DNA from: Candidatus Cloacimonetes bacterium HGW-Cloacimonetes-3
Lineage (GTDB): Bacteria; Cloacimonadota; Cloacimonadia; Cloacimonadales; Cloacimonadaceae
Length of the DNA: 64,000 nt
Assembly (NCBI GenBank): GCA_002840645.1
Contig: PHBO01000009.1
Location: 62,001 to 126,000 of the forward strand
Direction: 5' to 3'
Both the position numbers and the translations under genes were made by a program. The notes beneath the pieces were generated by a model that worked only from the letters and a program-made list of their open reading frames with translations, was not told the DNA's origin and ran no database searches. Position 1 is the stretch's first letter, and each line of letters opens with the position of its first letter. Below are positions 37,458 through 39,791 of the stretch, one piece after another.

Positions 37458-37631
37458 CTCTCTCTCCAATAATAATTTACTCCATATAGAATACTATAAA
37501 CATAATTGGACATATGTCAAGCTAAATTATGTGCTTTTATATGAACTGTTGAATACGGTTTTTGCTGAAATCGAAAAACCAGCACGATAAACTTACAGCT
37601 TTCAGCAGCGGAACCCATGAAAATCATCCTG

Positions 37632-37669
37632 ATGTCTCATCAGTCTTACTTAGACATTGTATTTCCCGC
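37632..37669 (-). repeat. dispersed repeat C, copy 2
   Basis: The reverse complement matches 39529-39566 at 34 of 38 positions: GCGGGAAA, then ACARTGTCTAAG, AAGRCTGATGAGACAT. The GCGGAGGCGGG flank continues the similarity to the TTCCCGCCTCCGC palindrome family. Confidence 0.8.
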
Positions 37670-37759
37670 CTCCGCTGGAAATATAGGAGGGGCTGCGACT
37701 TCACAATCTTGATATAGCTTTAATTTGTTAATGTGAGAATTCCAAAACCAAGAAATTTG

Positions 37760-37788
37760 TTGACACCCAGACACTCACTTCATTTATT
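37760..37788 (+). promoter_or_regulatory. possible speD promoter
   Basis: TTGACA at 37760-37765 is followed after 17 bases by TTTATT (37783-37788), a weak -10. Transcription from here would give a leader of about 330 bases before speD that includes the structured region. Other promoters cannot be excluded. Confidence 0.3.
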
Positions 37789-37916
37789 GGCATCATACAA
37801 AATAATAACGGACGGAGTCACCGTGAAATACCTGAAGTTTTTCCGAATCCATTCAGTACAATCTGCTTTGTATGGTGTAAAAACCATGCGTGCACCCCTA
37901 TGCGTTGATGATGAGG

Positions 37917-38085
37917 AGGTTTTAGCTAAGCTTTTTGCATACAGCGCAACATTGACACCTCTTATCTAACAAGGTTTTACAGCTTATATATCATGCTGCT
38001 TCGTGACTCCGGCAGTATGTTTTCCGGTACTAACCGTGGACACTAAAAAAGCTTAGCAACCTTGTTCTGCATTTTAGCCCCCCGG
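37917..38085 (+). ncRNA. candidate structured 5' leader of speD
   Basis: GCTAAGCTTTTT (37925-37936) is perfectly complementary to AAAAAGCTTAGC (38046-38057). Next to that right arm, AACCTTGTT (38058-38066) is perfectly complementary to AACAAGGTT (37968-37976), while AACC can also extend the first stem by pairing with GGTT (37919-37922). The second pairing crosses the first, so either a pseudoknot or a switch between two folds is possible. Inside, CATGCTGC pairs with GCAGTATG (near 37993-38019) and CGGT with ACCG. It does not match a riboswitch class I know by sequence. It lies 40-200 bases before speD. Confidence 0.4.
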
Positions 38086-38124
38086 GGCACATCAAACAAA
38101 ATTTAAGAATAAGAGGTTATAAAC

Positions 38125-38514
38125 ATGCAAGCACTTGGACGACAAATACTCGTGGAATTCTATGACTGTGATCACGAATTGCTAAAAGACGAAAAGTACA
38201 TTGCCGAAGCCATGGTAGAATCCTGCCACATTGGCATGGCAACCGTGGTGGCAAGCACCTTTCACAGTTTCAGCCCCTATGGAGTTAGTGGAGTGGTGGT
38301 GATCGCCGAATCCCATGTAGCAATCCACACCTGGCCAGAATACGGCTATGCTGCCGTGGACATCTTCACCTGCGGAGAGACGATTGAACCCTGGAAGCTG
38401 TTTCACTTCCTGAAAGATGCCCTCAAAAGCCAGCATGCCAGCAATATGGAGATTAAGCGCGGACTTTTTGATCTGGGCGAGGAAAAGCTACTTCACAAAC
38501 CTGATGGAGCCTGA
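38125..38514 (+). CDS. speD: S-adenosylmethionine decarboxylase proenzyme
   Basis: 129 residues, the short bacterial class. Self-cleavage between E62 and S63 (AESHVAIHTWPEYGYAAVD) gives the pyruvoyl cofactor; H68 and C83 (FTCGE) are the processing and catalytic residues. It makes decarboxylated SAM, the aminopropyl donor for spermidine. AAGAGG precedes the start. The end overlaps the start of speE by 11 bases, so the two enzymes of the pathway are coupled. Confidence 0.95.
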   Translation: MQALGRQILVEFYDCDHELLKDEKYIAEAMVESCHIGMATVVASTFHSFSPYGVSGVVVIAESHVAIHTWPEYGYAAVDIFTCGETIEPWKLFHFLKDALKSQHASNMEIKRGLFDLGEEKLLHKPDGA

Positions 38515-39395: not shown

Positions 39396-39542
39396 ACTGT
39401 CTTTCCCGCGGAGGCGGAAATCCAGACCAGGCTATACCCTCTAAAGGTGACAACTCTATTATATTGATTGACATAGGTTAACTATCTTATTTGCAGCAAT
39501 TGTTTAACAGTGCTGGATTCCCGCCTCCGCGGGAAAGACAGT
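39396..39542. repeat. 30-bp inverted repeat with 87-base spacer
   Basis: 39396-39425 and 39513-39542 are inverted copies with one mismatch in 30 (ACTGTCTTTCCCGCGGAG... and its complement). Each arm is itself palindromic in its centre (TCCCGCGGAGGCGGGA-like). Degenerate single copies of the same unit are seen near 16628-16655, 37661-37680 and 44318-44336, so this is a family of intergenic palindromic repeats. Confidence 0.85.
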
Positions 39543-39566
39543 GTCTAAGCAAGGCTGATGAGACAT
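39529..39566 (+). repeat. dispersed repeat C, copy 1
   Basis: 38 bases shared with 37632-37669 (inverted, four mismatches) and in part with 34811-34836. It continues directly from the right arm of the 30-base inverted repeat, so the palindrome and repeat C form one composite unit. Confidence 0.8.
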
Positions 39567-39791
39567 TAGTGTCTTGTTAAGCTTTGCATATCGCACCTGA
39601 CATTGATTTGGCAATATTGGGGTGGAAATCTCCTGTTTGCCACAAGCCGATCCGGAGATCGGCTTCCTTCTCCAGAATGAGACAGAATAATCGTAATTGC
39701 ACACGCCCCGTGTGCAGGCAGCCGAGGGCGGCTGCCATTACAGCGATGTGCTTTTTCTATCCGGATGTTGTATTAACCGAATCGTCAAAAA

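Follow-up and report, generated by a model that had tools for sequence, protein, structure and literature searches.

SAM decarboxylase catalyses the step that commits SAM to spermidine synthesis, and the leader of its gene, speD, in Candidatus Cloacimonetes bacterium HGW-Cloacimonetes-3 raises the question of whether this RNA acts as a regulatory switch and, if so, what does the sensing. The stretch of DNA analysed, hereafter the window, comprises 64,000 nucleotides of contig PHBO01000009.1, and the features of the leader described below lie on its + strand. speD (38125-38514, + strand) encodes an S-adenosylmethionine decarboxylase proenzyme of 129 amino acids, whose matches to PF02675 (6.6e-42) and TIGR03330 (5.5e-43) identify it as a genuine member of the AdoMet decarboxylase family, and it is followed by speE (TIGR00417, 2.1e-92). 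A fusion of speD and speE, suspected from long open frames, was not present. Within Cloacimonadota, speD was found in 26 of 125 genomes and was missing from the other 99; incomplete assemblies aside, most members of the phylum lack this speD or make triamines by another route. We also observed a repeat (ATGTCTCATCAG...) in inverted copies (37630-37700, + strand, and 39530-39570, - strand) on either side of the unit formed by speE, speD and the upstream open reading frame (ORF) described below; more partial copies occur elsewhere in the genome, and the repeat looks like an interspersed repeat family.

An earlier note on this DNA had described the speD leader as an RNA able to switch between folds by means of two crossing pairs of arms. 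The coordinates and complementarity that it gave were exact: left arm L1 (GCTAAGCTTTTT, 37925-37936) is a perfect 12-base complement of right arm R1 (AAAAAGCTTAGC, 38046-38057), left arm L2 (AACAAGGTT, 37968-37976) is a perfect 9-base complement of right arm R2 (AACCTTGTT, 38058-38066), and the two pairs do cross. A small spacer hairpin, which had been placed near 37993-38019, was recovered in the predicted fold at 37992-38019. Among 2000 dinucleotide-shuffled versions of the 208-nt region, 0.2% contained a perfect inverted repeat of at least 12 bases and 8.6% one of at least 9 bases, and the leader folded better than shuffles (z -2.6). The 64-kb window contains 11 perfect inverted repeats of at least 12 bases within 160 nt, so that pairs like L1:R1 are expected from a whole-window scan. 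L1 corresponds to upstream-ORF codons A-K-L-F and is conserved as codons, whereas its partner R1 is not. As a conserved helix L1:R1 had to be discarded, since it was absent from all 25 speD-bearing relatives, where the longest perfect complement measured 4-6 nt (p 0.16-0.99 against shuffled spacers).

A true riboswitch, in which the leader RNA would bind SAM, decarboxylated SAM or a polyamine and use L1:R1 versus L2:R2 as its expression platform, would be in keeping with the alternative folds that exist in the models and with the spermidine riboswitches that occur 5′ of spe genes as SAM-I variants (PMC10853860). However, scanning the window with the Rfam 15 covariance models gave no match at gathering score and, at a permissive threshold, only a chance snoRNA match on the other strand (E 1.6), which agrees with the earlier view that the leader resembles no known RNA class. 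Moreover, the spacer between the upstream ORF and speD is unconserved (53-60% identity within the genus), what is conserved is mostly coding, none of the 25 relatives has L1:R1, and no conserved structured aptamer with compensatory changes was found among them in the non-coding leader. A riboswitch at this locus is thus very improbable.

The description of the arms had omitted two elements of the leader, namely a short upstream ORF and a third pair of complementary 9-mers. The ORF (37823-37969) starts with GTG, is preceded by a Shine-Dalgarno (SD) sequence, GGAG (37814-37817), which recurs in relatives in the form GGAGTCRYC-start, and encodes a leader peptide of 48 amino acids (MKYLKFFRIHSVQSALYGVKTMRAPLCVDDEEVLAKLFAYSATLTPLI*). 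Such an ORF, ranging from 42 to 55 amino acids, lay immediately 5′ of speD, in the same orientation and with its own SD, in 26 of 26 speD-bearing Cloacimonadota genomes, and a profile built from the 26 peptides recovered each of them (E 3.6e-12 to 1e-25). No convincing copy was detected with this profile in the 99 speD-less genomes of the phylum; other phylum-wide matches had E values of 0.003 or worse, several of them being short stretches within long ORFs, and the window's own genome gave no second match of note. Homologues were found neither 5′ of speD at 74 loci in other phyla nor in 34 whole genomes from such phyla, the genome search lacking its own positive control, and no Pfam or NCBIfam family scored above cut-off for the peptide. 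A putative -35 box, TTGACA (37760-37765), is located 63 nt before the ORF start. Because TTGACA is found 57-67 nt before the start in all 26 (in L033 the script gave a nearer copy, and the copy at -60 was read from the sequence), the upstream ORF probably opens the transcript. The window's own -10 box before the ORF is weak; in L029, a sigma-70 match of 12/12 lies upstream of the ORF. As in leader-peptide attenuators, a short ORF with a coding signature, an SD and predicted translation therefore lies between a putative promoter and the regulated gene in every one of the 26 loci.

Several measures indicate that the upstream ORF evolves as protein-coding sequence. Mismatches at codon positions 1, 2 and 3 numbered 119, 76 and 184 in the window's genus and 379, 330 and 618 in genus g6, pairwise dN/dS ranged from 0.10 to 0.69 (0.10-0.49 within the genus), and identity within the genus was 72-84% for the ORF versus 53-60% for the spacer. 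Two blocks are conserved in the peptides, F.RIHS..EALY near the N-terminus and DDEEVL..LS.FSATL.PL at the C-terminus, and the tails that follow the C-terminal block vary in length among the 26 peptides.

The third pair of 9-mers joins the end of this ORF to the ribosome-binding region of speD: an anti-SD sequence in the last ORF codons (ACCTCTTAT, 37957-37965) is the perfect complement of the speD SD region (ATAAGAGGT, 38109-38117). It was the sole one of the three perfect pairs that is conserved in relatives. Across 22 distinct family sequences, 83.8% of anti-SD:SD cells were paired versus 38.9-58.1% in slid registers; double-change cells numbered 22 against 11.9 expected and covariation reached 0.265 versus 0.112, with none of 500 shuffles as good on either measure, although kinship of the sequences can inflate such shuffle controls. 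Partner changes between anti-SD and SD included CTT/AAG, CTG/CAG, CG/CG and others. The mean duplex energy was -13.9 kcal/mol with own partners versus -10.7 kcal/mol with permuted ones (0 of 20,000 permutations as good), and a scan of whole leaders for the segment pairing best with the speD SD placed it at the upstream-ORF end in 22 of 26 genomes, where about 5 were expected. In L020, L027 and L031 the anti-SD match comes from the variable tail, where CCTC occurs a second time; pairing near the ORF end is weak in L017, L021, L036 and L037. A covariation analysis of Cloacimonadota, which the earlier note had proposed as a check, thus found no counterpart of L1:R1 in the 25 relatives but did find covariation in anti-SD:SD, the only helix found to carry compensatory changes. 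An RNA structure masking the downstream ribosome-binding site, another hallmark of attenuators, appears here both as this covarying helix and in the MFE fold.

These results bear on the nature of the sensor. Because L1:R1 is specific to one genome, L1 lies within a coding ORF and the sole compensatory helix joins the ORF end to the speD SD, sensing is most likely performed by the translating ribosome or the nascent peptide and not by an aptamer; on the same grounds, the SAM- or polyamine-sensing RNA that had been suggested for these arms found no support. They also bear on the possibility that the ORF simply encodes a small functional protein, such as a regulator or partner of SpeD or SpeE, with SD pairing as secondary tuning. 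Conservation of both the N-terminal and the C-terminal block and dN/dS values below 1 are what such a protein would show; indeed, the N-terminal block counts against a pure arrest-peptide reading, and a small functional protein explains it equally well. Nevertheless, the ORF was found only directly 5′ of speD and never convincingly elsewhere, and the C-terminal tail varies in length and sequence, yet keeps its anti-SD complementarity, as the second copy in L020, L027 and L031 illustrates. We therefore regard a small protein acting in its own right as improbable.

Constraint on the ORF was also visible in its codon choice. Leu44 was encoded by TTG (37952-37954) in 26 of 26 genomes versus 10.6% usage of this codon in speD, Thr43 by ACA in 21 of 23, and the proline at the anti-SD by CCT in 22 of 23 versus 23% usage in speD. 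Further upstream, an SD-like GAGGAGGT inside the ORF (37913-37920, codons E31-E32-V33) is constrained at the nucleotide level: its glutamate codons were GAG in 41 of 42 cases, though GAG makes up 25% of the glutamate codons in speD. The fixed TTG44, ACA43 and GAG codons go beyond protein conservation or the anti-SD helix, and could reflect codon- or tRNA-dependent stalling or an SD-driven pause. A second conserved helix, between the SD-like GAGGAGGT and the anti-SD, was rejected, own partners being no better than swapped ones, and a +1-frame ORF over the SD-like stretch proved, when read from the sequence, to be closed in the window's genus.

Folding models were then used to follow the leader with a ribosome masking different parts of the ORF. 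The predicted fold hides the speD SD in the anti-SD:SD helix, inside which L2:R2 is nested in this sequestered state. For the window leader, the model gave anti-SD:SD a value of 0.92 without a ribosome, and values of 0.91-0.93 when the masking ribosome stood at the start, in the middle of the ORF or over the Glu-Glu-Val codons (0.93 at the last of these). With the ribosome masked at codons 44 or 46, anti-SD:SD fell to 0.00, L2:R2 was also abolished, L1:R1 rose from 0.00 to 0.98 or 0.90, and accessibility of the speD SD increased from 0.13 to about 0.52. Over all 26 leaders with the ribosome masked at the motif, mean SD accessibility rose only from 0.19 to 0.35, the gain being absent in several genomes, above all in genus g6. 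The models thus suggest that, in this genome, the crossing helices are the two states of a switch operated by the ribosome, the lineage-specific arm R1 being predicted to pair when a ribosome covers the anti-SD and L2. Unlike L1:R1, the anti-SD:SD helix is the general part of the proposed switch. The notion of alternative L1:R1 and L2:R2 folds accordingly survived in the models for this genome, but 25 of 25 relatives lack L1:R1. All in all, the speD leader is very probably regulatory, with mutually exclusive folds.

We consider it likely that this leader is a leader-peptide translational attenuator, in which speD is switched on when a ribosome halts at the C-terminal motif. The putative promoter just upstream would yield an mRNA on which the ORF for the 48-amino acid peptide (37823-37969) comes first. 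The last ORF codons, acting as anti-SD (37957-37965), would pair with the speD SD (38109-38117), with L2:R2 stacked inside, and speD would be off. A ribosome held at F-S-A-T-L-x-P, with its P site at about codons 44-46, would cover the anti-SD and L2, so that the SD would be at least partly freed, L1:R1 would form, and speD, then speE, would be translated. The conserved peptide would arrest the ribosome in response to a signal. Within this scheme, the comparisons directly support the ORF, its conservation and selection as coding sequence, its restriction to speD loci, and the covariation between anti-SD and SD. Peptide conservation points to stalling, arrest being the most likely role of the leader peptide; folding suggests codons 44-46 as the stall position. 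As a guess from the target gene, the stalling signal would most plausibly be a polyamine or a polyamine precursor, or else SAM. As to the direction of control, we infer that a ribosome pause at the end of this mini-gene probably turns spermidine synthesis on. Because the Leu44 codon is invariant, arrest would perhaps also require a UUG-reading Leu-tRNA. We give about even chances to the more specific proposal of a new, Cloacimonadota-specific family of arrest peptides that sense polyamine, precursor or SAM status in the ribosome tunnel and control SAM decarboxylase through an anti-SD in their own last codons.

The evidence for the anti-SD:SD helix needs no stalling, and ordinary translation of the ORF might transiently open the helix with no ligand being sensed by the peptide, in the way that translation of orf34 helps to open an inhibitory structure that covers the speF ribosome-binding site (PMC6386406). 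Simple coupling of this sort, however, has no need for a conserved peptide, a near-invariant C-terminal motif or an invariant leucine TTG, and we judge it rather unlikely. Alternatively, the upstream ORF might control an intrinsic or Rho-dependent terminator, instead of or besides translation. SpeFL and MdtU act partly through Rho (PMC7815308), and in 8 of 10 genus g6 spacers a terminator-like hairpin of the ATCCG..CGGGT/CGGAT type precedes a T-rich stretch; against this, a search for an intrinsic terminator in the window's spacer found none, no terminator-like site being present there on the + strand, and roughly half of the spacers in the 26 genomes had no such site according to the script. 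Transcription attenuation is accordingly an unlikely account of the leader. For genus g6, the hairpins suggest an added or different output by transcription attenuation. We note that the terminator-like hairpins of L018, L022, L023, L024, L029, L030, L032 and L033, all from genus g6, show compensatory changes (AAAATCCGG..CCGGGTTTT, AAAATCCGA..TCGGATTTT) and are T-rich thereafter.

Translational attenuation by the leader peptide, the reading that we favour, can be set beside several known systems; a bacterial speD leader peptide was not found in searches of the open-access literature. In Enterobacteria, SpeFL/orf34 is an ornithine-responsive leader peptide of speF, whose ORF translation opens a structure hiding the ribosome-binding site (PMC6386406) and on which ribosomes stall near the stop codon (PMC7815308). 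The speD leader resembles it in that a polyamine-synthesis gene is preceded by a short leader ORF. It differs in its target, speD rather than speF (ornithine decarboxylase), in the remoteness of the phylum and in its peptide, to which E. coli SpeFL (MENNSRTMPHIRRTTHIMKFAHRNSFDFHFFNAR) appeared unrelated in a comparison by eye only. The anatomy is very similar to that of MdtU, the spermidine-responsive, C-terminally conserved upstream ORF of E. coli mdtJI; this ORF stops 106 nt before the gene, and base-pairing between its 3′ part and the ribosome-binding site downstream has been predicted (PMC7815308). MdtU, however, controls an exporter and not a biosynthetic enzyme, and homology was rejected, as MdtU scored -1.2 bits against our profile. 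In toiL/topAI, a stalled ribosome on the leader ORF frees a sequestered ribosome-binding site (PMC12121999); erm- and topAI-type attenuators would share this release by a stalled ribosome, but they sense antibiotics, and we claim no sequence relation. By analogy, the speD leader would work like SpeFL and MdtU while standing outside those peptide families, and would represent a known kind of regulation. The spermidine riboswitch, a SAM-I variant, also provides leader control of speD/speE-type genes (PMC10853860), but it is an RNA aptamer, whereas the speD leader has no SAM-I or other Rfam match. Peptide- and ribosome-based control of the same enzymatic step is known from the upstream ORFs of eukaryotic SAM decarboxylase genes (PMC3426882) and from the arrest peptide of the AMD1 C-tail (PMC13025110), in plants and animals; those peptides are unrelated and involve no SD pairing, so that the likeness would be one of convergence. 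If our interpretation is correct, polyamine synthesis would here be controlled by a nascent peptide independently of the known cases, in a phylum that is almost uncultured, and by a compact arrangement in which one set of nucleotides both encodes the end of the peptide and masks the downstream SD; the leader would parallel, in bacteria, the control of eukaryotic SAM decarboxylase by peptides.
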